A stretch of 53,080 bases of DNA. Origin: Rhodospirillaceae bacterium. GTDB lineage: Bacteria > Pseudomonadota > Alphaproteobacteria > Rhodospirillales > JABHCV01. The notes under the pieces were generated by a model, which worked only from the letters and a program-made list of their open reading frames with translations, was not told the DNA's origin and did no database searches. The stretch spans positions 1 through 53,080 of the forward strand of contig JABMOQ010000033.1 of NCBI GenBank assembly GCA_013204045.1, read 5' to 3'. The position numbers were made by a program, and so were the translations under genes. Below are positions 7,067 to 51,085 of the stretch, piece after piece (position 1 is the first letter of the stretch; the number at the start of each line of letters is the position of its first letter).

Positions 7067-8887
7067 ATGTGCGGACTTGCAGCCATCTTTGCCTACGGCC
7101 CGGGGTCAGCCCCGGTCGAAAAAAATATCCTCGTTGCCATGAACGAACGCATGGCTCGGCGTGGTCCCGACGGCGAAGGGCTATGGCTATCGGCCGATGC
7201 CCGCGTCGGGCTGTCCCATCGGCGGCTGGCCATTATTGATCTTGATGACCGCGCCGCCCAGCCGATGTGCTTTGCGGCGGAAAGTGGCCGGATTCACATT
7301 ACCTATAACGGCGAAATTTATAATTTTCGGGAACTGCGCGGCCAGCTGGAAGCGGGCGGCGCGACGTTTAAAACGTCATCCGATACCGAGGTCCTGCTGC
7401 ACCTCTATCATCGGGACGGTGCGGCCATGGCCGAGTCCTTGCGCGGCATGTTCGCCTTCGCCATCTGGGACGAAGGCAAGGGCGGCCTGTTGCTGGGCCG
7501 CGATCCATTCGGCATCAAGCCGCTTTACTACATGGATGATGGCAGAACCATCACGGTTGCCTCGCAGGTCAAGGCGATCCTGGCCGGGCTTGCCCAAGGC
7601 GGCCGACCGACCCCGCCCTTCGATGCCGCGGCCCATGCCGGATTTTTCCTGTTCGGCCATGTGCCGGAACCGCTGAGTCTTTTCAAGGGTATCCGGGCGC
7701 TTCCGGCGGGAACGACCCGGTGGATTGACGGTGACGGGCCGGGACCGTTAAAAAAATACTTCGATATTTCGGCGCATTTAAGCGGCGCAGGCTCGGAGGG
7801 GGATCGTGATCTTGGCGCCCTCCTGCGTGATTCGGTTGCCCATCATCTGATCGCCGACGTTCCCGTCGGCGTGTTCTTATCGGCCGGACTCGATTCGGCA
7901 ACACTGGCGGCGCTGGCCGCCGAATCCGCCGATACCCATGGCGCCGGCATCGATACCCTGACTCTCGGCTTCGAGGAATTCGCCGGCACCCCGAATGACG
8001 AGGTGGCCCTGGCCGAAACCGTCGCCGCCGCCTGCGGGACACGCCATCATAGCGTGCGTGTCGCCGGCCTGAATTTCGCCGATGACCTGGACGATCTGCT
8101 GGATGTCATGGATCAGCCGAGCATCGACGGGGTCAATGTTTACTTCGTCGCCAAGGCAGCGCACCGGGCCGGTCTCAAGGTGGCGCTGTCGGGGCTTGGC
8201 GGCGACGAATTATTCGGCGGCTATGACAGCTTCAAACAGATTCCGTCCCTGGTCGGGGCGGTGGGCTGGCTGCCGGGCGGGGCGACGGTCGGCGCTGCAC
8301 TCCGCGGGCTGGCAGCGCCCGTCTCCGGACGTCTGCGCAAGCCCAAGGCGGCGGGCCTGCTGGAATACGGCACCCGCTTCGGCGATGCCTATTTGCTCCG
8401 CCGCGCCTTGTATATGCCTTGGGAAATAGCCAACGGAATCGACGGGGTGATGGATGCCGACATGGGCCGCGCCGGACTTGCCGAACTGGACGTCCTTGGG
8501 CAGCTCGACGCGTGTCAGGCCCCTGCCGGTGCGCCGACGGCCAAAGTGGCGGCGTTGGAAATGAGTTTTTACATGCGCGCCCAACTGCTGCGCGATGCCG
8601 ATTGGGCGGGCATGGCCCATGGCTTGGAAATAAGGGTACCGCTGGTGGACCGCGCCTTGTTCGAGGGCCTCGCCGGCGGGATCGGAAAAGGCCATGGCCC
8701 GTCGAAACAGGCCATGGCCCAGACCCCTCGGCGGCGATTGCCCGATGCGGTGCTGAAAAGGCCGAAAACCGGCTTTTCGGTGCCCGTGCGCGACTGGATA
8801 CAGGGTGCGGGAAAGGCCTCTGAAAACCATGAAGTTGGCCTGCGGGGCTGGGCAAAAACGGTCTACCGGGCGCAAATCAGGGGGTAA
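7067..8887 (+). CDS. asnB: Glutamine-hydrolysing asparagine synthase family protein
   Basis: 606 residues. The N-terminal class II glutamine amidotransferase starts with the catalytic Cys after Met (MCGLAAIFAYG) and contains RRGPDGEG and TYNGEIYNFRELR. The C-terminal ATP pyrophosphatase domain has the P-loop-like VFLSAGLDSATLAAL, where the common SGGxDS is SAGLDS, and SGLGGDELFGGYD. The family converts aspartate, glutamine and ATP to asparagine. In polysaccharide clusters, relatives can amidate sugar acids or other carboxylates. The neighbours (heptose genes and a UXS-like SDR) make an envelope role possible, so the gene symbol is a family name only. No clear ribosome binding site precedes ATG 7067. 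Confidence 0.85.
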   Translation: MCGLAAIFAYGPGSAPVEKNILVAMNERMARRGPDGEGLWLSADARVGLSHRRLAIIDLDDRAAQPMCFAAESGRIHITYNGEIYNFRELRGQLEAGGATFKTSSDTEVLLHLYHRDGAAMAESLRGMFAFAIWDEGKGGLLLGRDPFGIKPLYYMDDGRTITVASQVKAILAGLAQGGRPTPPFDAAAHAGFFLFGHVPEPLSLFKGIRALPAGTTRWIDGDGPGPLKKYFDISAHLSGAGSEGDRDLGALLRDSVAHHLIADVPVGVFLSAGLDSATLAALAAESADTHGAGIDTLTLGFEEFAGTPNDEVALAETVAAACGTRHHSVRVAGLNFADDLDDLLDVMDQPSIDGVNVYFVAKAAHRAGLKVALSGLGGDELFGGYDSFKQIPSLVGAVGWLPGGATVGAALRGLAAPVSGRLRKPKAAGLLEYGTRFGDAYLLRRALYMPWEIANGIDGVMDADMGRAGLAELDVLGQLDACQAPAGAPTAKVAALEMSFYMRAQLLRDADWAGMAHGLEIRVPLVDRALFEGLAGGIGKGHGPSKQAMAQTPRRRLPDAVLKRPKTGFSVPVRDWIQGAGKASENHEVGLRGWAKTVYRAQIRG

Positions 8888-8890
8888 AAA

Positions 8891-8956
8891 GGGTGAAATA
8901 GGCCCTTACCCAGTAAAATAAGGGCATAATTTCCACCCGCTGTGCTGAAACAGCGG
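8891..8956. terminator. Hairpin pair between convergent genes, probable bidirectional terminator
   Basis: A stem GCCCTTA (8902-8908) / TAAGGGC (8919-8925) is extended by a nearly complementary outer pair, GGGTGAAAT (8891-8899) and ATTTCCACCC (8929-8938). A second hairpin, CCGCTGT-GCTGAA-ACAGCGG, follows at 8937-8956. The site lies between the stop codons of two convergent genes, as expected for a shared terminator. There is no strong T run. Confidence 0.55.
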
Positions 8957-9027
8957 ATATTACCCTTATAAACCCCGTTTTTGATGCAAAAAGCCCGATA
9001 AAACAGCACATTCTAATTTGTGCCGGG

Positions 9028-39864: not shown

Positions 39865-39914
39865 AAAATGGTGCACCCGGCGAGATTCTAACTCACGACC
39901 TCTGCCTTCGGAGG
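39865..39914 (-). repeat. Left attachment repeat: decayed 3' end of tRNA-Arg(CCG)
   Basis: On the minus strand this 50-bp block reads as a tRNA 3' half: anticodon loop CTCCGAA with CCG, a GGCAG anticodon-stem strand, T-arm GTGAG/CTCGC, acceptor strand CGGGTGC and ACCA. It is followed (to the right) by unrelated sequence, so there is no 5' half. It matches the copy at 44831-44880 at 49 of 50 positions. The difference, at 39889, changes the T-loop. It marks the outer boundary of island 1. Confidence 0.85.
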
Positions 39915-40124: not shown

Positions 40125-40959
40125 TCATTCAGGAAATTCCTCTCTCCATCGCTGAACAATATCGGCTGGAAACCTGACGTGATCAGGTCGGCAGTGATAA
40201 TGCCTTCGCCATGGATAGGCGGGCTTCTTGGTGCCCGTCAATCTGATACGTTCGACACTTCCTTTTAAGGACATGGGGTTACCGGCAGCGATCGTCAAAT
40301 CTGGGACATCACGGTTAACCAAGGTGTGAGATCCGACAAAGGCGTCCCTTCCTATCTTGCAGCCCGGCAGCACCGTAATCCGTGTGCCTAATACAGCATA
40401 ATCACCAACGGTCGGTCCCTTGTCCCCAAGGGATGGGGGATGGGGGTCATTGGTAAAAATACAATACGGAAATATCCAAACAAAATTACCGATTTTGGCA
40501 CCTTGGCATAGGTGCACGTTATTATATGTGAAAACAAAATCGCCGACCGTCAGATGGCCTTCCACCTCTGTAGAGGTTCCAAATATACAGTTATCACCGA
40601 TTTTTGACTGTTCTCTAATAAGGACGTTATGCCCCGTTTTGAATTTGCTACCAATATTTGAACCTACGTAAAAAATTGAGTGAGACCTCAAGTGAGCGTT
40701 ATCGCCAATGACCAAACGATTAGTCCCATCAAATTCGCCAGCTCCAAGATAACAATAGGGCTCTACGACTGAGTTATCCCCCAACTCAACGCCGTCTCCA
40801 ATGGTAACAAAGTCACCAATGGTACAATTTTTGCCGATTACTGCATTTTCTGAGATGTTTCTAGAAATGACAGGCCCCTCTTAAAATATACATTCCCACT
40901 CTATTGCCAGCATAAAATGCGGGCCCGACTATATCAAAAGAATCGCTGCCCCTTGACAT
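40125..40959 (-). pseudogene. Left-handed beta-helix acyltransferase, apparent frameshift near the N-terminus
   Basis: The C-terminal 219 residues form a hexapeptide-repeat acyltransferase (GDNAHLRSHSIFYVGSNIGS, VGDYAVLGTRITVLPGCKIG, IAAGNPMSLKG), probably a trimeric O- or N-acyltransferase. Hexapeptide repeats continue in frame upstream (NISENAVIGKNCTIGDFVTI) to a stop at 40881-40883 with no ATG, GTG or TTG available before the internal TTG at 40784. In the next frame a plausible N-terminus starts at ATG 40959 (MSRGSDSFDIVGPAFYAGNR then MYILRG). Removing one G from the GGGG run at 40874-40878 would join the two frames. It is either a recent frameshift or a sequencing error. It is the last gene of the ACP cassette and probably transfers the acyl group made by it. 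Confidence 0.75.
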
Positions 40960-40998
40960 CAATAAATGCTCGGCGCCAAAGCTTGCCGGAAAAAATAA

Positions 40999-41274
40999 TC
41001 AGGCATTTGCAATGTGCTCAGCAAGGTTCCCGACGACAGCTAGATTTTTATTGTTGAAGTCGTCAATCGATATTTCGACATCATAGTTGGTCTCAATCTC
41101 AAAAAGCAGGTTAATAATATCCAACGAGTCAAACTGGAGGTCTTCAATAAAATGTAGTTCCCCCGAATCCCGGCCCGAAAAATCACCCAAATCATCTTTA
41201 TAAGAAACGGCCATTTTAACTAATTCTCTGGTCAGTTTTTCCTTAGGGTTTTCTGTCATAGCTTCTTCTTTCAT
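40999..41274 (-). CDS. Acyl carrier protein
   Basis: 91 residues, acidic and helical. The phosphopantetheine attachment Ser is in LQFDSLDIINLLFEIE. ATG 41274 is used; ATG 41259 (MTENPKEK) is an alternative. Acyl carrier proteins carry thioester-bound intermediates. This one lies between a KASIII-like gene (4-bp gap) and the acyltransferase, so it is probably a dedicated carrier for the cassette rather than the fatty-acid synthase AcpP. Confidence 0.9.
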   Translation of the reverse strand: MKEEAMTENPKEKLTRELVKMAVSYKDDLGDFSGRDSGELHFIEDLQFDSLDIINLLFEIETNYDVEISIDDFNNKNLAVVGNLAEHIANA

Positions 41275-41278
41275 TCAC

Positions 41279-42235
41279 TTACTTACTCATGATCACTACG
41301 CTTGCCCAAGACAAGCCAACCCCGAACCCCGACATAAAAATCTTTTCGGGACGAGGCCCATTGCTCAAAATGCCCCGACACAACGCGATCGGAATCGTGG
41401 AAGAGGTCGTATTCCCTATATCCGCAATATCGACAAGCACTTTCTCAGTTGGGATATTCAACCTCATAGCCAATGTTTTCAATACGTAACGGCTTGCTTG
41501 GTGAAATATCCATACATCTATATCTGGCGCTGTCAACTCGTTGGCTTCAAGGCATTTTGCCACTGATTTTGGTATCGATGACATGACAAAATTAAAGATG
41601 TTCTGCCCGTTCATATAAAGCGGTTCGATTAAATCGCGCCGCATTCCACTGCCACGAGCGATCAAGGAGTCCGATTTTTTACCGAAGGTACCAAAGTCGA
41701 ATTTACCTAATTTATAAGCCGGATTACGTCCAAGCCAAGTCGCCGAAGAGCCATCGCCAAACAATGGTGCTGTCGCGCGGTCTTTTTGGTCGATAATTTT
41801 TGAGTAGGTTTCTGCCGTTATCAGAATCGCATTGTCGAAACCGTTGGCTTCCATCATTCCCTGAGCAACACTTAAGCCATATACGTAACCCGAACAGCCC
41901 AGATTGATGTCAAGAGCTGCAACCGAAGAAGGTAATCCCAACCGATCCTGAACCAACGCTGATACCTGGGGCAGACAATAATCCGGCGTCTGAGTAACAA
42001 CGATCAACAAGTCAACCGCATTAGGATCGAGGTCAGTTTCATCCAACAACTTTGCCCCAGCAGCGGTCGCTAGATCGGATGTGTATTCATCTTCGGCTGC
42101 AATATGCCGCGAGAGAATACCCAGTTTTTCTCTTATAAACTGCTCATCAAATCCATGGTCCTCAATGACCCTATCATTTGAAACCGCTTCCCCAGGCACA
42201 AAGAACTTGATTTCCTTAATACCGACCGATCCCAT
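41279..42235 (-). CDS. 3-oxoacyl-ACP synthase III (KASIII/FabH)-like condensing enzyme
   Basis: 318 residues of thiolase fold with the full Cys-His-Asn triad: Cys in INLGCSGYVYGLSV, His in IFHQASRYVLKTLA and Asn in DIGNTTSSTIPIAL. FabH-type enzymes condense an acyl-CoA starter with malonyl-ACP. In sugar-modification loci relatives supply unusual acyl chains on a dedicated ACP. It is followed at once by the ACP gene and preceded by the MaoC-like gene. The substrate is unknown. Confidence 0.88.
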   Translation of the reverse strand: MGSVGIKEIKFFVPGEAVSNDRVIEDHGFDEQFIREKLGILSRHIAAEDEYTSDLATAAGAKLLDETDLDPNAVDLLIVVTQTPDYCLPQVSALVQDRLGLPSSVAALDINLGCSGYVYGLSVAQGMMEANGFDNAILITAETYSKIIDQKDRATAPLFGDGSSATWLGRNPAYKLGKFDFGTFGKKSDSLIARGSGMRRDLIEPLYMNGQNIFNFVMSSIPKSVAKCLEANELTAPDIDVWIFHQASRYVLKTLAMRLNIPTEKVLVDIADIGNTTSSTIPIALCRGILSNGPRPEKIFMSGFGVGLSWASVVIMSK

Positions 42236-42321
42236 TATTTATACGCCTCACATTTGGACAAAAAACCAATCAATTGAATATTCTTGATAATTCAAACAAG
42301 AAATCTAAATAAATTCGTCTA

Positions 42322-42741
42322 TTAATTATTTACCAGAATCTTAATAACCATATTCGTATCGGCGACTTGTACATTATTTTGATTAAAGCACTTTGCTTTA
42401 ATTTTTAATGCCTTCATGGACCTTAGCCGCCCGACAACCTCCACCGTCGCGGTGATCACATCGCCCATATAAACAGGGGCTAGGAAGCGAGTATTTTTCT
42501 CCAAGGCGACGACGACAGTTTCCTCGGAGCCAAATGTTTCGACCAGCGCTCCCGCAATCCGGCTTTCAGTTACAAAGCCGTTTGAAATGGCGCTCTTAAA
42601 TCCAAACTTTTTGCCCACCGTGTCATCGAAATGTATCGGGTTGAAATCACCGCTGATTTCAGCAAATTGATTGTTATACTCTATTGTCACCTGACGGGTT
42701 AAAGAACCTTTGTATCCAATGACAAAATCATCGAATTTCAT
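42322..42741 (-). CDS. MaoC-like (hot-dog fold) dehydratase/hydratase
   Basis: 139 residues with the hot-dog hydratase-2 motif FNPIHFDDTVGKKFGFKSAI, in which Asp and His are the usual catalytic pair, and the central FLAPVYMGDVITATVEVVGR strand. MaoC-like proteins hydrate or dehydrate acyl thioesters on CoA or ACP. Here it probably acts on a 3-hydroxyacyl intermediate of the cassette. The gap to the KASIII-like gene is 86 bp and to the HMG-CoA-synthase-like gene 43 bp, all on the same strand. Confidence 0.85.
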   Translation of the reverse strand: MKFDDFVIGYKGSLTRQVTIEYNNQFAEISGDFNPIHFDDTVGKKFGFKSAISNGFVTESRIAGALVETFGSEETVVVALEKNTRFLAPVYMGDVITATVEVVGRLRSMKALKIKAKCFNQNNVQVADTNMVIKILVNN

Positions 42742-42784
42742 GGATCATCATATCCTTTAATAACACATTTTGACGTTAAGTGTT

Positions 42785-43963
42785 TCATACGGATCCGTAT
42801 ATGCGTTTTTCATCTTCGACCCCGATAAACTTGAATGGGCCCGATGCCTTTATTGCTGAAACCTTTTCTTGCGGACTTCCTCCCCGCTCATATATTTCGG
42901 CTAAGCGCTCATAATCCCCAACACTAACTTTATTTCTCGCATCCAGTTGCTCTTGCACATCAAACTTTTTCAATATCTGTTCGCATCCTGGGACAAACTC
43001 GCCTCTGATAAGCACGGCACCACATCCCGAGCCGTAGGAAAACAAGTAACACCCGTCGTAGGCGTCCGTTATCGACGGTTCCTGCTTACGCTCGTGGAAC
43101 TCACCTAACACGCTCATTAAACCCAGCCATACGCTCCCCGTATAAATGTTCCCCACTCTGGAGGCATAGCGAAGGCCCGCAGCGACCTTTTCAAGAAAGC
43201 TCTCTTTCGGTGAGGCATCGTCAAACAACTTGGCAATTCGATGGTAGGTCTGCTGCACTAGCTTTGGATATGGCGCATGAAAAACAAACGCGGCACCCTT
43301 TTTCAGAGTTTCTTGCTGGAAGCAATAGGTCGCCGCATCCGCATAGCATTGCGCTGAAAACATCCCATCCACAATGGGATACTTTTTTTCCAGCGGCTTC
43401 CAAAAATCGTAAACGCTTTTGCTGAAGGAGCTAACCTCTTCTAGCGCCATCAATCTTGGATTGGCGCAAATCAGCATGGCGACAGCGCCCGCCCCCTGCG
43501 TCGGCTCGCCCGCAGATTCCCGCTCATAACGAGCAATATCTGATGCAATAACCAGCGCATATCTGCCTTTTCCTGCCCCCCGGACCCAGTCAAGAGCCGA
43601 GAGAACACCATAAGTCGCCCCGATACAGGCATGCATGATGTCATAGACTCTGCAATTCGGGCCAATCCCAACAAGTTCATGGACATGAGTAGCGGTCGGT
43701 TTCGACTTGTCTTCAGCACTTTCTGTGCCAACGATCAAAAGTCCAATGTCTGACCTAGATATACCGGCTTCATCAATGACTTTATCGGCCGCATTCGCTG
43801 CTAGGACAACAGCATCTTCATCATTTGAGGCAATTGAGATTTCTCTTATTCCAATTCCCTCTGTGTATTTTTTGGGGTCCACACCTCGAACGGTAGCCAA
43901 TTCGTCCAATGCCAGGAAGTGCCCTGGAGTATAGAAAGCAATATGGTCAATCCCGACGTCCAT
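42785..43963 (-). CDS. HMG-CoA synthase-family protein
   Basis: 392 residues, the size of bacterial HMG-CoA synthases. The catalytic residues are visible: Glu in VGTESAEDKSKP, the acyl-binding Cys in DIMHACIGATYGVL and the His in FVFHAPYPKLVQ. The family joins acetyl-CoA (or acetyl-ACP) to a beta-keto thioester to give a beta-branched product. It occurs in mevalonate synthesis and in polyketide beta-branching. No mevalonate genes accompany it. The ACP, KASIII and MaoC neighbours suggest synthesis of a branched acyl group for the acyltransferase at the end of the operon. The start is ATG 43963. Confidence 0.88.
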   Translation of the reverse strand: MDVGIDHIAFYTPGHFLALDELATVRGVDPKKYTEGIGIREISIASNDEDAVVLAANAADKVIDEAGISRSDIGLLIVGTESAEDKSKPTATHVHELVGIGPNCRVYDIMHACIGATYGVLSALDWVRGAGKGRYALVIASDIARYERESAGEPTQGAGAVAMLICANPRLMALEEVSSFSKSVYDFWKPLEKKYPIVDGMFSAQCYADAATYCFQQETLKKGAAFVFHAPYPKLVQQTYHRIAKLFDDASPKESFLEKVAAGLRYASRVGNIYTGSVWLGLMSVLGEFHERKQEPSITDAYDGCYLFSYGSGCGAVLIRGEFVPGCEQILKKFDVQEQLDARNKVSVGDYERLAEIYERGGSPQEKVSAIKASGPFKFIGVEDEKRIYGSV

Positions 43964-44030: not shown

Positions 44031-44325
44031 CTATAATATCCATGACAATGTAGAGGGCAATATGCGCGTATTCTTATTGCCAATAAAGTTGAATCCACCA
44101 CAGTTTCTAGACAGGCGAAGCGCCCTTATTCGTGCACCCTTTTCCGCAAGCTCAAGTATTTTGGCAAGAACTATCGTCTTGGCTTCCGTAATCGACGAAA
44201 AGGATTTCAAGTTCACAATCCAATTTTTTAGCAGTTGCCGTCAGCCGTTTATAAAATGGAACGATATTTTCCGACTCATTGAAAACAGTGCCAACCACGG
44301 ATGGGAGGGATGGCGAGGCGTTCAA
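44031..44325 (-). pseudogene. Frameshifted N-terminal remnant of a GT2 (GtrB/DPM-like) glycosyltransferase
   Basis: Two minus-strand frames together look like the start of a polyprenyl-phosphate glycosyltransferase. The first, from TTG 44325, reads GTVFNESENIVPFYKRL then CELEILFVDYGSQDDS, matching the family VFNESEN and FVDDGSxD motifs, and stops at 44152. The next frame continues LAKILELAEKGARIRALRLS followed by RN, the expected next block. At least one frameshift separates them, and the rest of the enzyme is missing. It sits just upstream of the acyl cassette and suggests the island once carried a lipid-linked sugar transferase. Confidence 0.7.
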
Positions 44326-44419
44326 AACAAGGTCTCTCTAGCGTGACTCAGAAAAGCGACTTTAAGTCATCAATATTTAAAATGACAGTTGTTATAAATC
44401 GTATGTTTTCTTCGTTTCG

Positions 44420-44795
44420 TTGACGAAGACCAAGAACAGAGAAGACCGATCGGATCGTCTTACAGAGTGGGCAAAACAGGTGTTGGCAGGTTTGGACCCG
44501 CAAGAGTCCGGCCCGGTATTCACCTATCGCGGACAGGCTATTAAGTGCGTTAAAAACAACATTCAACAAAGCACGCATACGGACAAAGTTGGAAGATTTC
44601 CGCTTTCACGACCTGAGGCATACGTTCGCCTCACGTCTCGCACAACAGGGCGTTCCTTTGTACGAGATCATGCACCTGACGGGGCACAAGAGCTTCCAGA
44701 TGGTGCAGCGCTATGCGCACCTGGCGCCCGACTTCCAAGAGCGGGCAATCGGGACGCTCAACGCCTATGGCACAGTTTCGGCACAGTCGGCCTAA
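44420..44795 (+). pseudogene. Broken tyrosine recombinase (integrase) C-terminal fragment
   Basis: Two overlapping plus-strand frames carry integrase sequence. The first, from TTG 44420, reads KTKNREDRSDRLTEWAKQVL and VFTYRGQAIKCVKNN. The second, from about 44589, reads EDFRFHDLRHTFASRLAQQ, LTGHKSFQMVQRYAHLAP, which includes the HxxR, H and catalytic Tyr blocks. The N-terminal domains are absent and a frameshift lies near 44570-44590, so it cannot be active. It points at the tRNA-derived repeat 36 bp downstream, and was probably the integrase of island 1. Confidence 0.85.
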
Positions 44796-44830: not shown

Positions 44831-44880
44831 AAAATGGTGCACCCGGCGAGATTCGAACTCACGACCTCTGCCTTCGGAGG
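44831..44880 (-). repeat. Central attachment repeat: 3' end of tRNA-Arg(CCG)
   Basis: On the minus strand this reads as a sound tRNA 3' half (CTCCGAA anticodon loop, GGCAG, T-loop with TTCGAAT, acceptor CGGGTGC, then ACCA). Unrelated sequence follows to the right, so it is not a complete tRNA gene. It repeats 39865-39914 with one mismatch and separates island 1 from island 2. Confidence 0.87.
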
Positions 44881-45003: not shown

Positions 45004-46041
45004 CTACATGCGGTCGGCCATATCCCGAATGTGTTGGTCATTGTGATGGGCATAGACCCGTTCAAGAGTCGGGAAGGACATATTCATGAAGGCAGCGACA
45101 TCGGAAATTTTCTCACCATTTTGGACCAGTAAACTCACGCGCGTATGGCGCAGGGTGTGAGGCGTCACGTCATGAAGCCCGGCTTGTTTGCAGGCGGTGC
45201 GAAAGCCCTTCACGATGCTCTGGACCCTTTTGTAAGGGGCATGCCTTTGGTGGAACAAAAAGGAGCTTTTACCTTTTGAGAAACGGTAATGACGTTGTAG
45301 GTGGGGCAACAGCTTCCTAGGAATTGGAATTTTTGCTCTGCGCTTGTTGGTTTCTTCTTGTCTAGGTTTGTTAAAGTCGATGGTGCCGGAGTTAAAATCA
45401 ATTTGCGACCACTCCAGCTCCATGATCGCGTTGCGTCTCGCGCCGGTATAAAATGCGATCACGATGAACAAACGAAGGGTGAACTTGGAGCGATGTTCTC
45501 GACCGGCGGCTTGTAGAAGTTTTGCCATTTCAGTGCGAGTCAGCCAGCGGTCTTTCGGTTTGCCTCCTTTGGGAACAATGAACTTAGCAATGGGTAAAAC
45601 CCTGTTCATGGAGACCGCATGATTGATTGCTGCCCTCAGACAGGTCAATTCTCTGCGAACGGTACCTTTCGCCCGGGGAGATTGATCCACATAGGCTTTG
45701 ATTGTTTCCTTGTTGACCTTGTCGAGGGTGCCATCTTCCCAAAAATTGAGAATATGATCGATGGCATAGCCAAGGCGGGAGGCTTCTCGGTCTTGTTCGA
45801 CAAAACGGGCATAGTCTTCCAGCACCTGGGCGATTGTCATTTTGTTCGGATTAATAGCCTGGCCGGTCAGCGCGGCGCGTCGTTCTCCGAGGAAAGTTTC
45901 GAGGGCTTCTTCAGCCTCTGCGCGATTTGCCGTGCCCGTTGAACGCTCTTTTTGCTTTCCGTCTGTGTCGATGAAGCGAATGTAATAGTTTTGTTTTTGC
46001 TTGCGCTTGATGATGCGCGGTCCTGTGCCGGGTCGAGACAT
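45004..46041 (-). CDS. int: Tyrosine recombinase (phage-type integrase)
   Basis: 345 residues. An N-terminal SAM-like core-binding domain (about 70-155: NKMTIAQVLEDYARFVEQDR) precedes the catalytic domain. The catalytic Arg is in YTGARRNAIMELEW, the HxxR in TPHTLRHTRVSLL, and the nucleophilic Tyr in LERVYAHHND. It catalyses site-specific integration and excision. It ends 123 bp from the tRNA-Arg repeat at 44831, which is therefore its likely att site. Its 5' end overlaps the excisionase-like gene by 175 bp. Confidence 0.93.
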   Translation of the reverse strand: MSRPGTGPRIIKRKQKQNYYIRFIDTDGKQKERSTGTANRAEAEEALETFLGERRAALTGQAINPNKMTIAQVLEDYARFVEQDREASRLGYAIDHILNFWEDGTLDKVNKETIKAYVDQSPRAKGTVRRELTCLRAAINHAVSMNRVLPIAKFIVPKGGKPKDRWLTRTEMAKLLQAAGREHRSKFTLRLFIVIAFYTGARRNAIMELEWSQIDFNSGTIDFNKPRQEETNKRRAKIPIPRKLLPHLQRHYRFSKGKSSFLFHQRHAPYKRVQSIVKGFRTACKQAGLHDVTPHTLRHTRVSLLVQNGEKISDVAAFMNMSFPTLERVYAHHNDQHIRDMADRM

Positions 46042-47159: not shown

Positions 47160-48218
47160 ATGAGCAAGCGCCCTTCCAAAGGCCCGATCATACGCAACAG
47201 CACGGCGGAGTTTTTGATCTTCATCGGCCAAAGCGGTGATGAGGGTATCGAGGTCCGCTATCAGGACGAAACCATCTGGCTGACGCAGAAGCTGATGGCC
47301 GAGCTGTTCAGTGTCGAGCGGTCCGTTATCACTAAGCATTTGCAAAACATCTTTAAAGACAACGAACTGGATAGTGATTCAGTATGTGCAATTTTTGCAC
47401 ATACTGCCGCCGACGGCAAAATATACGATACGCAGTTTTATAATCTGGACGCCATTATTTCCGTTGGCTACCGGGTTAATTCGGTTCGCGCCACCCAGTT
47501 TCGCCAGTGGGCGACCCCGGTCCTTAGGGAATTCGCTATCAAAGGCTATGTGATGGACAGGAAGCGCCTGGAAAACGGCACCTATCTGGGCGAAGATTAT
47601 TTTGAAAGGCTGCTTGAAGAAATCCGGGAAATCCGCCTGAGCGAACGCCGATTTTATCAGAAGATTACTGATATTTACGCCACCGCCCTAGACTATAACA
47701 ACGACGCCCCAACCACCCGCGACTTTTTTGCCAAGGTACAAAATAAGCTGCATTACGCCATTCATGGTCACACCGCCGCTGAGATAATAAAAAAACGGGC
47801 GAACAGCGACAAACAACACATGGGCCTGACAAGTTGGGACGCGGCTCCGGAAGGTAAAATCCTTAAAACCGATGTTGTCGTGGCGAAAAACTATCTCAGC
47901 AACGACGAACTTGAATCCTTGGGTCGTATCGTCAACGCCTATCTTGATTTAGCCGAGGACCGCGCACACCGCCAAATCCCCATGACCATGGAAGACTGGG
48001 CCAGCCGCCTGGATCGTTTCCTTGAATTCGACGACCGGGAAATACTCACTAACGCCGGGACCATCAGCGCCAAAATAGCCAAAGATCACGCCCAAAACGA
48101 ATTCGAAAAATACCGCCCTCTGCAAGATCGACTGTTTGAATCCGATTTTGACAAAGAAGTTAAGAAGATTGAGAAGGCCTCGAAGGGGCGGGAGAAAGCG
48201 GGCGAAGATGATGAATAG
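47160..48218 (+). CDS. rhuM: RhuM-family virulence protein
   Basis: 352 residues. The N-terminal region has the RhuM signatures IWLTQKLMAELFSVERSVIT, SVCAIFAHTAADGKIYDTQF and NLDAIISVGYRVNSVRATQFR. A helical C-terminal region follows (TTRDFFAKVQNKLHYAIHGH, ending in a Lys/Glu tail). RhuM was named in a Salmonella pathogenicity island and homologues are common on islands. The biochemical function is not established. It starts 36 bp after the small membrane protein and is convergent with the Sel1-caspase gene. Confidence 0.9.
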   Translation: MSKRPSKGPIIRNSTAEFLIFIGQSGDEGIEVRYQDETIWLTQKLMAELFSVERSVITKHLQNIFKDNELDSDSVCAIFAHTAADGKIYDTQFYNLDAIISVGYRVNSVRATQFRQWATPVLREFAIKGYVMDRKRLENGTYLGEDYFERLLEEIREIRLSERRFYQKITDIYATALDYNNDAPTTRDFFAKVQNKLHYAIHGHTAAEIIKKRANSDKQHMGLTSWDAAPEGKILKTDVVVAKNYLSNDELESLGRIVNAYLDLAEDRAHRQIPMTMEDWASRLDRFLEFDDREILTNAGTISAKIAKDHAQNEFEKYRPLQDRLFESDFDKEVKKIEKASKGREKAGEDDE

Positions 48219-48298: not shown

Positions 48299-51085
48299 TC
48301 ATTTTCCAACAACAATCTGCGCCGTCTGCTCACGTCCATAATAACGGCGGGCGTAGTAGGTCAGAGTTTCTTTGAAATACCGGCCAAGCTCATCGTAACC
48401 GACCTTACCATCGCCGTTTCCATAGGGTTTGGCGTCGGCTTCGCCGCTCATGCCTTTGAGGAAGTACTTGGTGAAAAGTCCGCTTGATGAGTCCTGCTCC
48501 CATGAAGCGATCTGGTTGGCTGCACCGGCGGTGATGACGGTTATGTTCGGCGGAATGCCCGTCTCCTTGGCCTTCAGATAAATGGGGGAAGCTTTGGCGA
48601 TGACTGATCCGGATTGGCTGGTTCCAGAGAAACAGGCTTCCAGAACCACGGTCACCGACTTCGCCGGTATCTTGCTCAGGTTATTATATAGCGTCTTCAA
48701 CGAATAACCGTTTAGATCAATGAGCGAGGCTTGGGCATTTGAGGGCACAAGGTAACTGTTTCCCTCTTCCCCTCCGGGCGCTCCGTGGCCGGAGTAGTAA
48801 ACAAAGACGCGCGACTTCCCGGCCTTCACAAAGTTATATAATTGACCCTTGGAATTCGTCTCACTGCCGAACGTGGCAATGAGTTCGGCCTGGCTAGCGT
48901 CTTTCAGAAATATGATGTTCTCTTCTCGAATGCCGAGAGACTGTTTGATGTAATTTTTGATTCCCGCAGCATCGGCATAGGCCGGGATTACATCTGGAAT
49001 ATCTTTTCCCTTTTTATAATCAGCATTGCCGATGATTACGGCTATGTCGTCCGGTTGAGGTTTGGAGGAACGGAACCGAACATTTATGGGTTTTGATGGA
49101 AAGCCGGATGCGATTTTCTTGGGAGGTATTGGTGAGGCTTTAACAACCTTTTTAGGCATTGTAGGAACGAGCAGTGAAGCACTGGCGGTTTGAGAATTTA
49201 CGGTATTCAACTTTTCAAGAAGTTGTTGGGCAGAAAGGTTCCCTTGTTTAGCTGCCAATCGCAACCATTTTTTGGCTTCCTTGAGGTCTTGAAGAACACC
49301 TTGTCCTGCGGCATAGCTGGCCCCGAGTTGTAATTGGGCGTTGGCATACCCTTGGGCGGCAGCTTTGTGAAACCAATTAACCCCCTCGGCATAATCCTGA
49401 GGAATACCTTTGCCCAAGTTATACATAAATCCAAGAACAGACTGAGCCTCTGCATCTCCCTGGGAAGCGGCCTTGCGAAGCCACTTAAACGATTCTTTAT
49501 CATCCTTAGGCACCCCACCAAATCCCATAGAGTACATAGAGGCCAAGAGATTCTGAGAATCTAGATCTCCCTGCTCTGCAGCGAGTAGGGTCCAATTTCT
49601 GAACCCTTCTTCGCTATTCATAATATCCAGTTCGTGAGTGCCGCTAAAATTCATTTCTTGCTTTTCAGCTAGTTGATACCACCTTTCTGCTTCTTTGGCG
49701 TTTTGTGGGACACCGATGCCGTTGTCATACATCAAACCTAGATAGTACTGAGCTTTCGCTACACCTTGATCAGCCGCGAGACGTAGCCATTTGGCGGCCT
49801 CTTTATAATTAATTGTAATTCCTTGTATTCCAATATATCTCACCCCCAAGGAGAAATGAGCATTAGCGTAACTCTGATCAGCAGCTTTAAGGTACCATTT
49901 CAGAGCCTCGGCATGATCTTGGGGGGCTCCCAAGCCTCTATCGTACATAAACCCAAGTTGTAATTGCGCTTCTGCATCACCCTGCTTGGCGGCCTTGCGA
50001 TACCAATTAATTGCCTTTGCAGAATCCCAATGAACACCAATGCCCCATTTGTACATCATCCCAAGTTGGGATTGGGCCATAACATATCCCAGCTCAGCTA
50101 ATGGTCTGAAAACCTTTAATGCCGAGTCGTAATCTTTCTTAACAAATGCATCAAAGCCCTTTTGGAAAGCAGAAAGCATTACGCCGGGGTTCACTTCATC
50201 AAATGCTTTTTGCGAAGGAATGTGCCCTTGTTCAGCGGATTTCCGGTACCATTTTACAGCCTCGGCATGATCTTGGGGGAGCCCTCGTCCCGTTTCGTAT
50301 TTCTTACCAAGATAGTACTGAGCGTCCAGGTCGCCCTGTTCAGCTGCCTTGCGGCACCATTTGACTGCTTCTGTGTCATCATCAAGAAAATACATTCTAC
50401 AAAGGTAAGATTGGGCAGAAGAAATTCCCTGTTTAGCAGCTAGCTGCATCCATTCACGGGCTTTGACGTGTCCAAATTCTGCTGCTTCTCGTATAAGTTT
50501 GACGGCCTTTTCTTTATCTTGGGGAAATCCCCGTCCCTCATTGAACATCAAACCCATAGTGTACTGGGCTTTGAGTTTCCACTTTACTTCTTGGAGCAGC
50601 CTCATGGCTTCCTTGTCATTTTTGGGAACACCTCGTCCTTCAAAATACATAACCCCAAGATTGGCTTTTGCATCAACATTCCCTTGTTTTTCTGCCAACA
50701 TGTACCATTTGGCGGCTTCCTTATAATCTTTAGGAATACCAGGAACACCATCCTCGTATATTGTGCCCAGATTGTTCTGGGCATTAACGTTTCCCTGATT
50801 TGCGGCTAACCGAAACCACTTTATGGCTACTTTAATATCTTTTGTGAATGCTTCTGTTTTACGGGGTACACCACGCCCGTTTGAGTACAATACACCAAGA
50901 CGGTTCTGTGCATCGGTATCTCCTTGTTCCGCCAGTTGCTCCCACTTTTTCAATGCAGTCGCATAATCCTCCTTTGTTAATTCAGCAGATGAAACTGGGA
51001 ATACAACCAACAAGGAAAGCAAAAAAGTGAGAAAGAACTTTCGTTTCTTAAGAACCAAAAATACGTGTATGAACATCATCGTCAC
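48299..51085 (-). CDS. Secreted Sel1-repeat protein with C-terminal caspase-like protease domain
   Basis: 928 residues. A signal peptide (about 1-34, hydrophobic FFLTFLLSLLVVFPVSSA) is followed by about 14-16 Sel1/TPR-like repeats (about 36-640; for example GDLDAQYYLGKKYETGRGLP), then a linker and a caspase-like (peptidase C14) domain from about 690. The catalytic His is in FVYYSGHGAPGG and the Cys in VLEACFSGTSQ (about residue 818). Near the end NGDGKVGYDEL resembles an EF-hand loop, although its first acidic position is not Asp. The Sel1 array probably binds partner proteins and the caspase domain cleaves after activation. It is last in the cyclase/caspase operon. Confidence 0.88.
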   Translation of the reverse strand: MTMMFIHVFLVLKKRKFFLTFLLSLLVVFPVSSAELTKEDYATALKKWEQLAEQGDTDAQNRLGVLYSNGRGVPRKTEAFTKDIKVAIKWFRLAANQGNVNAQNNLGTIYEDGVPGIPKDYKEAAKWYMLAEKQGNVDAKANLGVMYFEGRGVPKNDKEAMRLLQEVKWKLKAQYTMGLMFNEGRGFPQDKEKAVKLIREAAEFGHVKAREWMQLAAKQGISSAQSYLCRMYFLDDDTEAVKWCRKAAEQGDLDAQYYLGKKYETGRGLPQDHAEAVKWYRKSAEQGHIPSQKAFDEVNPGVMLSAFQKGFDAFVKKDYDSALKVFRPLAELGYVMAQSQLGMMYKWGIGVHWDSAKAINWYRKAAKQGDAEAQLQLGFMYDRGLGAPQDHAEALKWYLKAADQSYANAHFSLGVRYIGIQGITINYKEAAKWLRLAADQGVAKAQYYLGLMYDNGIGVPQNAKEAERWYQLAEKQEMNFSGTHELDIMNSEEGFRNWTLLAAEQGDLDSQNLLASMYSMGFGGVPKDDKESFKWLRKAASQGDAEAQSVLGFMYNLGKGIPQDYAEGVNWFHKAAAQGYANAQLQLGASYAAGQGVLQDLKEAKKWLRLAAKQGNLSAQQLLEKLNTVNSQTASASLLVPTMPKKVVKASPIPPKKIASGFPSKPINVRFRSSKPQPDDIAVIIGNADYKKGKDIPDVIPAYADAAGIKNYIKQSLGIREENIIFLKDASQAELIATFGSETNSKGQLYNFVKAGKSRVFVYYSGHGAPGGEEGNSYLVPSNAQASLIDLNGYSLKTLYNNLSKIPAKSVTVVLEACFSGTSQSGSVIAKASPIYLKAKETGIPPNITVITAGAANQIASWEQDSSSGLFTKYFLKGMSGEADAKPYGNGDGKVGYDELGRYFKETLTYYARRYYGREQTAQIVVGK

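Follow-up and report, generated by a model that had tools for sequence, protein, structure and literature searches.

A candidate beta-branching acyl-donor gene set for surface amino sugars in a Rhodospirillaceae genome and its relatives

The five-gene cassette

The window analyzed here is the whole stretch of 53,080 nucleotides of contig JABMOQ010000033.1 from a Rhodospirillaceae bacterium (assembly GCA_013204045.1), and the subject is a cassette of five genes between positions 40125 and 43963, all on the minus strand. Read along that strand, the open reading frames (ORFs) encode a homologue of 3-hydroxy-3-methylglutaryl (HMG) synthase (HMGS; 42785..43963, 392 aa, PF01154/PF08540), a MaoC-type (hot-dog) hydratase/dehydratase (42322..42741, 139 aa, PF01575 at 7.8e-22), a FabH-like beta-ketoacyl-ACP synthase (KASIII; 41279..42235, 318 aa, PF08541/PF08545), a dedicated acyl carrier protein (ACP; 40999..41274, 91 aa, with the DSL attachment motif) and a hexapeptide (left-handed beta-helix, LbH) N-acyltransferase (40125..40868, PF00132). 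A preliminary description of this DNA, made from the letters alone, had placed these five families here, and Pfam and NCBIfam models confirm each of them where it was placed. All five proteins pass the Pfam cut-offs (for the PP-binding domain PF00550 of the ACP, 25.0 vs. 20.8). The KASIII reaches 264.3 bits with NF006829 (cut-off 249) and keeps its Cys-His-Asn triad. The first four proteins (HMGS to ACP) are complete in length and keep all their catalytic motifs, and the HMGS is the single one in its genome.

The frame of the hexapeptide transferase is longer than the listed ORF. It is open back to an in-frame TAA (40883-40881), and no ATG, GTG, or TTG occurs ahead of the TTG at 40784, the first ordinary start codon; an ATT, a codon usable as a rare start, stands at 40868-40866 directly after GAGGGG. 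With phmmer, residues 6-225 of its 249 match QdtC (3fs8) at E 2.6e-44, and this nearly full-length relatedness agrees with the acyltransferase assignment of the preliminary description. QdtC is the N-acetyltransferase of dTDP-3-amino-3,6-dideoxyglucose. The match begins ∼25 residues upstream of the TTG at 40784, so that either translation of the transferase begins at the ATT or the start codon has been lost.

The four-gene core in other genomes

Genome searches added four loci to the HMGS clade: L008 (Rhodospirillaceae SI037_bin24, HMGS identity 56-57%), L009 (Rhodospirillales bin.359, 53-54%), L015 (a proteobacterial bin, 51%), and L016 (Desulfobacteraceae GH14, 49%). The five cassette HMGS are monophyletic with support 100/99 in a tree of 17 rows (five cassette, eight mevalonate-type, and four intermediate rows; polyketide-type HMGS were left out). 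In the alignment, positions E81, C113, and H229 of the window HMGS, presumably the catalytic residues, are invariant in all five.

All five loci have MaoC, KASIII, and an ACP-like ORF near HMGS, in a shuffled order. The order is HMGS-MaoC-PseC-ACP-KASIII in L008, KASIII-HMGS-MaoC-ACP in L015, and HMGS-MaoC-ACP-KASIII in L016. In L009, it is HMGS-MaoC-KASIII-ACP with a protein of 230 aa between MaoC and KASIII (8281-8973, minus strand, without Pfam match). Because the order is reshuffled, it can be argued that selection keeps the four genes together. The motif SGDxNP[IV]HF is invariant in the MaoC proteins of the loci; GCSG, FHQA, and GN are kept in KASIII (5/5), as is DSL in the ACP or ACP-like protein (5/5). 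Between loci, identity is 49-61% for HMGS, 58-67% for MaoC (58-64% between the window MaoC and the four others), 36-59% for KASIII, and 16-51% for ACP. HMGS and MaoC are thus the most alike, as expected if both act in succession on the same intermediate. The preliminary description had asked whether the five families occur together outside polyketide clusters: four of them do, in all four other loci, which removes the objection that the genes do not co-occur elsewhere, and the hexapeptide transferase does not follow them (0/4).

The core has neighbors of amino-sugar or other surface-glycan type. L008 and L009 are pseudaminic- or legionaminic-type clusters; L015 and L016 carry sugar-type genes. 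The L008 run comprises PseB, GNAT, HMGS, MaoC, PseC, ACP, KASIII, DUF4910, and a PF02522 transferase, and continues to a cytidylyltransferase and a NeuB-family synthase. HMGS and MaoC lie there between a PseB and a PseC that both score over their cut-offs (525 vs. 407.75 and 486.3 vs. 423.5), and the NeuB-family synthase reaches neither the NeuB nor the PseI cut-off. The L009 run (LegB-like, LegC-like, NeuC, NeuB, PglD-like, nucleotidyltransferase, sugar amidotransferase, PF02522 transferase) ends with the module, followed by a cytidylyltransferase. Its NeuB (465.9 vs. 399.65), NeuC (439.2 vs. 235.9), and N-acetyl sugar amidotransferase (373.2 vs. 203.2) exceed the cut-offs; the LegC-like protein stays under that of the LegC-family model (385.2 vs. 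420), and the LegB-like protein has no NCBIfam match at E 1e-20. In L015, a GNAT protein and a PF02522 transferase lie near the cassette, and in L016 a GNAT protein, a CmcI-type methyltransferase, a DegT aminotransferase, a sulfotransferase, and two glycosyltransferases of family 2 (GT2). In place of the hexapeptide protein, there are PF02522 transferases in L008, L009, and L015 and GNAT proteins in L008, L015, and L016.

Among the 40 neighbor proteins scanned in these four loci, there is no member of the crotonase, decarboxylase, or UbiD families, and ketoreductase-type matches are secondary hits of PseB only, never a main match. Large proteins without Pfam match lie near the cassette in L008 (7708-9444, minus strand), in L015 (2033-3652, plus strand), and in L009 (39-1796, 3701-5671, and 5632-6987, minus strand).

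Wider searches delimit the clade. In contigs, the single window HMGS gave no further members, and a three-row alignment gave four confirmed loci among 63 stretches, two of them the ones already found in genomes G402 and G589. No viral contig came up by the HMGS search or with one ACP as query, and the 87 matches in plasmid records are all below 60% identity. Around the window's own genome (included in each count), the HMGS search has hits in 2/6 genomes of the family, 3/297 of the order, 6/385 of the class, and 4/398 of the phylum. The other three of the phylum are mevalonate-type by their neighbors; the other five of the class score 223-269 bits, and the four of these that were checked have an adjacent reductase. 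In the phylum of G1034, 5/297 genomes were found, the four others at 324-345 bits; the order of G1034 (1/389, under a stricter limit) and the class of G1035 (1/58) returned only those genomes themselves. With a five-row HMGS model, the clade members score 701-722 bits, and no score lies between 345 and 701 in the family, class, and G1034-phylum searches, a gap that is partly built in because the model was made from those five rows.

Proposed function

These families and contexts suggest that the cassette is an acyl-donor module that works by beta-branching and serves surface amino sugars, a reading to which we give about an even chance. KASIII would join acetyl-CoA and malonyl on the dedicated ACP into acetoacetyl-ACP. 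The HMGS homologue would then add an acetyl unit to the beta-ketone, with formation of 3-hydroxy-3-methylglutaryl-ACP, and MaoC would dehydrate the tertiary alcohol to 3-methylglutaconyl-ACP, the role of the crotonase ECH1 in polyketide beta-branching. Finally, a local N-acyltransferase would link the branched dicarboxylic acyl as an amide to a nucleotide-linked amino sugar; this enzyme would be the QdtC-like hexapeptide protein in the window and the PF02522 or GNAT proteins in the relatives. Judged from the families, the scheme (acetoacetyl-ACP, HMG-ACP, 3-methylglutaconyl-ACP, N-transfer) appears to be the shortest that uses all the enzymes and leaves nothing over. It departs from the order first supposed, in which KASIII extended the product of MaoC, since KASIII before HMGS is judged likelier. 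With no crotonase, decarboxylase, or main-hit ketoreductase among the 40 neighbors, HMG is the sole beta-hydroxy acyl that the visible set offers to MaoC. A MaoC-type precedent for tertiary beta-hydroxy thioesters is the itaconate-degradation hydratase Ich/RipB; the Ich/RipB model gives the window MaoC 17.2 bits, far below its cut-off of 340. In favor of the module, branched and pyroglutamate-like acyls comparable to the proposed one are described on O-antigen amino sugars, namely Fuc3N and Qui3N (PMC10609480) and Qui4N (PMC3210612).

A broader proposal, which we put forward tentatively and with less than even confidence, is that a line of HMGS and MaoC free of polyketide synthase (PKS) makes a 3-methylglutaconyl or hydroxymethylglutaryl thioester and attaches the acyl as an amide to pseudaminic-, legionaminic-, or Qui3N-type sugars, with a four-gene core mobile between Rhodospirillales and Desulfobacteraceae and with exchangeable transferases, and that such a line is so far undescribed. 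A literature search, with most subscription journals outside its coverage, found no paper tying HMGS genes to such acyl groups.

Several observations weigh against the acyl-donor module. The comparison is limited to five loci in total, the four others all from metagenome assemblies, and the QdtC-like transferase accompanies the set in the window only. The FdtA/QdtA family (ketoisomerase) would make the dTDP-3-amino sugar. PF05523, the model of that family, matches in 2/5 genomes overall and has no match in the window's own genome, rated 98.73% complete, so that the set is possibly an orphaned remnant there. By sequence, the cassette HMGS is also nearer to the CoA-type mevalonate synthases than to the ACP-type PksG and CurD: against solved structures, the HMGS profile gives 323.6 bits for M. 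xanthus and 303.6 for S. aureus (5hwo and 1xpl, presumably the MvaS of these organisms) and 161-170 bits for the polyketide type (PksG 169.7, CurD 166.6). For this reason, an ACP substrate for HMGS stays a proposal.

The carrier protein itself is uneven. With the PP-binding model, the L009 counterpart scores over the cut-off (28.7) and that of L008 under it (13.3); in the family scan, the L015 protein has no family and the L016 protein no PP-binding match, and the ACP call is weak in these last three loci. The L015/L016 profile does match a solved ACP at E 1.7e-7, and the best solved ACP for L008 is at E 0.023. Structure models are poor (pLDDT 55.6 for L016 and 63.6 for L008), and a fold search with the poor L008 model gave no match at E 0.001. 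On this sequence evidence, the ACP call is firm for the window and L009, intermediate for L015 and L016, and weak for L008.

Genomic setting and alternative readings

In the window, two copies of a 50-bp direct repeat (39865..39914 and 44831..44880, minus strand, 98% identical, 4,966 bp apart) enclose a 4,966-bp unit that holds the cassette. By chance, no such pair is expected, and the assembly contains exactly two copies at ≤3 mismatches. The repeat ends with a T-arm-like GTTCGAATC (with a substitution in one copy) and CCA. A tRNA gene scan of the window found none, so the attachment site is termed tRNA-3′-end-like on its letters alone. G+C is 42-51% over 40-44 kb and 58-63% over 33-40 kb. 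The cassette segment is foreign-looking and bounded by tRNA-3′-end-like repeats. Beside the right repeat lies the C-terminal remnant of a tyrosine integrase (44424..44795, plus strand, PF00589 at 2.3e-17, profile positions 109-169 of 172), and just outside it the full-length tyrosine integrase of a neighboring island (45004..46041, minus strand, PF00589 at 1.4e-21). Tandem integrations at one tRNA would explain the repeats, the integrase stub, and the complete integrase; because of the flanking repeats, we infer that an integrase brought the cassette copy into this genome. Scans for promoters (11 vs. 8.3 expected) and terminators (7 vs. 5.5 expected) are near chance.

Upstream of HMGS is the N-terminal piece of an ArnC-type GT2 ended by a stop (44155..44337, minus strand). 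It matches the ArnC-type model NF007986 at E 4.3e-6, far below the cut-off, and the solved ArnC-type chain 9hwj at E 0.0011; at E 0.01 it has no Pfam match. The GT2 remnant of the preliminary description is real, but weakly matched.

In the same low-G+C island, one protein combines Sel1 repeats with a caspase (C14) domain (48299-51085, minus strand), and, judged by eye, a further caspase-like C-terminus is truncated where the contig ends (52591-53079, minus strand). A RhuM-family protein (47160-48218, plus strand, PF13310 at 8.6e-111) lies between an HTH regulator and the Sel1-caspase gene. On another contig of this genome (C64, locus L055), a NeuB-family synthase and TPR-like and radical-SAM-like proteins lie beside flagellin; L055 is probably a locus for flagellin glycosylation, all but NeuB being judged by eye.

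One alternative, a real possibility although short of even, is that the copy in this genome is an island relic, dead or decaying and now functionless whatever its role in the donor; it is compatible with the acyl-donor module, a reading of the module as such. The integration repeats and the integrase stub that bound the cassette, the broken GT2 beside it, the full-length transferase without an ordinary start codon, and the lack of FdtA/QdtA all speak for it. However, four of the five proteins are intact with all their catalytic motifs, the ATT could serve as a start, and the NeuB beside flagellin could offer another amino-sugar acceptor. The branched acyl decoration of a surface glycan supposed in the preliminary description is partly supported, by the amino-sugar and glycan contexts and by the QdtC-like fifth gene, but the local copy may be orphaned.

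It is rather unlikely that the same module gives the sugar hydroxymethylglutaryl, or a further product made with enzymes coded elsewhere, such as 3-hydroxy-3-methylbutyryl after decarboxylation or 3-hydroxy-3-methyl-5-oxoprolyl after amination. Such groups are reported in two sources: 3-hydroxy-3-methyl-5-oxoprolyl on Fuc3N in V. cholerae O5 and 3-hydroxy-2,3-dimethyl-5-oxoprolyl on Qui3N in P. shigelloides O74 (PMC10609480), and 3-hydroxy-3-methylbutyrate on Qui4N in Shewanella (PMC3210612). A further product could also be accommodated by the large proteins for which Pfam gave no match (three in L009, one each in L008 and L015). Against it, MaoC is kept in all five loci as tightly as HMGS, and the scanned neighbors include no decarboxylase or crotonase.

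Less probable again is an order on CoA esters, in which HMGS and MaoC would form 3-methylglutaconyl-CoA as a primer for KASIII with malonyl-ACP, and a C8 branched 3-oxo-acyl-ACP would go to the sugar. The CoA type of the HMGS sequence and the gene order in the window (HMGS, MaoC, KASIII, ACP) favor it, but the order differs elsewhere, with KASIII first in L015, a beta-keto group would be left with no reductase seen, and acetoacetyl-CoA would have to come from outside the set.

With the mevalonate model TIGR01835 (cut-off 360.35), the five cassette HMGS score 303.0, 307.2, 314.9, 317.1, and 331.7 bits (the last in the window), and none passes, whereas the six control HMGS with an adjacent HMG-CoA reductase all pass at 407-527 bits. 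The reductase family PF00368 is found in 6/6 control neighborhoods scanned and in none of the scanned cassette neighbors; a genome-wide search for it was not run. A mevalonate operon was rejected on these grounds, and with it the objection that the gene set belongs to a known fatty-acid or mevalonate pathway. Primary metabolism of mevalonate or isovaleryl-CoA type is accordingly very improbable: the HMGS homologue is nearest to MvaS enzymes, including that of M. xanthus, which uses HMG-CoA for isovaleryl-CoA as well, but it misses the score that all controls reach, no reductase accompanies it among the scanned neighbors, and such a pathway has no use for KASIII and ACP.

A seventh HMGS compared with TIGR01835, of the L031 type, also passes, at 386.1 bits. 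In L031, L033, and probably L032, from genomes of the phylum of L016, HMGS lies beside UbiD. L031, whose HMGS is ∼39% identical to that of the window, also has an acetyl-CoA hydrolase/transferase there, and an Aconitase X protein accompanies UbiD in L033. These gene sets of L031 and L033 resemble a mevalonate route of archaeal type, here in bacterial genomes.

A polyketide beta-branching cassette was likewise rejected. As defined in PMC10006238, such a cassette includes a KS0 acting on the malonyl-ACP donor and the crotonases ECH1 and ECH2. All recognized KS-type neighbors here are KASIII with Cys-His-Asn intact, so that no KS0 is seen, and the HMGS is not of the PksG/CurD type. The crotonase pair, already noted as lacking in the preliminary description, is indeed absent from the 40 neighbors of the four loci and from the scanned window proteins.

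Comparison with known systems

The cassette HMGS shares with MvaS (TIGR01835) the family, the catalytic residues, and the nearest solved relatives. It differs by its separate clade, by scores under the cut-off throughout, and by the absence of mevalonate genes beside it. With polyketide HMGS beta-branching, the common features would be an HMGS-type addition to a beta-ketoacyl-ACP followed by dehydration, carried out by small separate proteins. Here, however, there is no PKS, KASIII occurs instead of the condensation-inactive KS0, the MaoC fold instead of the crotonase ECH1, no ECH2 decarboxylase is seen, and the HMGS sequence is of MvaS type. If the proposal is right, HMGS beta-branching would have a second use, in which a MaoC fold replaces the crotonase on a tertiary alcohol. 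The combination of this HMGS clade with MaoC, KASIII, and ACP would then be a signature predicting a charged branched acyl on nonulosonic acids and 3-amino sugars.

On the side of the acceptor, the window transferase matches QdtC over nearly its whole length. The donor of QdtC is acetyl-CoA, whereas a branched acyl-ACP is proposed here, and the partner QdtA/FdtA is missing from this genome. The oxoprolyl groups described for V. cholerae O5 and P. shigelloides O74 in PMC10609480 are, like the predicted one, beta-methyl-branched acyls with a five-carbon chain on a 3-amino-3,6-dideoxyhexose, but contain a nitrogen within the acyl ring.

A further parallel is the N-acylation of sugars with 3-hydroxybutyryl. 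Groups of that type occur on bacterial amino sugars, and KASIII/ACP genes presumably feed them. In both cases, a short beta-hydroxy acyl would be destined for an amino-deoxy sugar or a nonulosonic acid, with acetoacetyl-ACP as the likely shared intermediate. In the cassette, HMGS and MaoC stand instead of the ketoreductase and would introduce a branch and a second carboxylate. From its sequence families, the cassette is perhaps best called a sugar N-acylation system fed by KASIII and ACP, to which an HMGS branch has been added.

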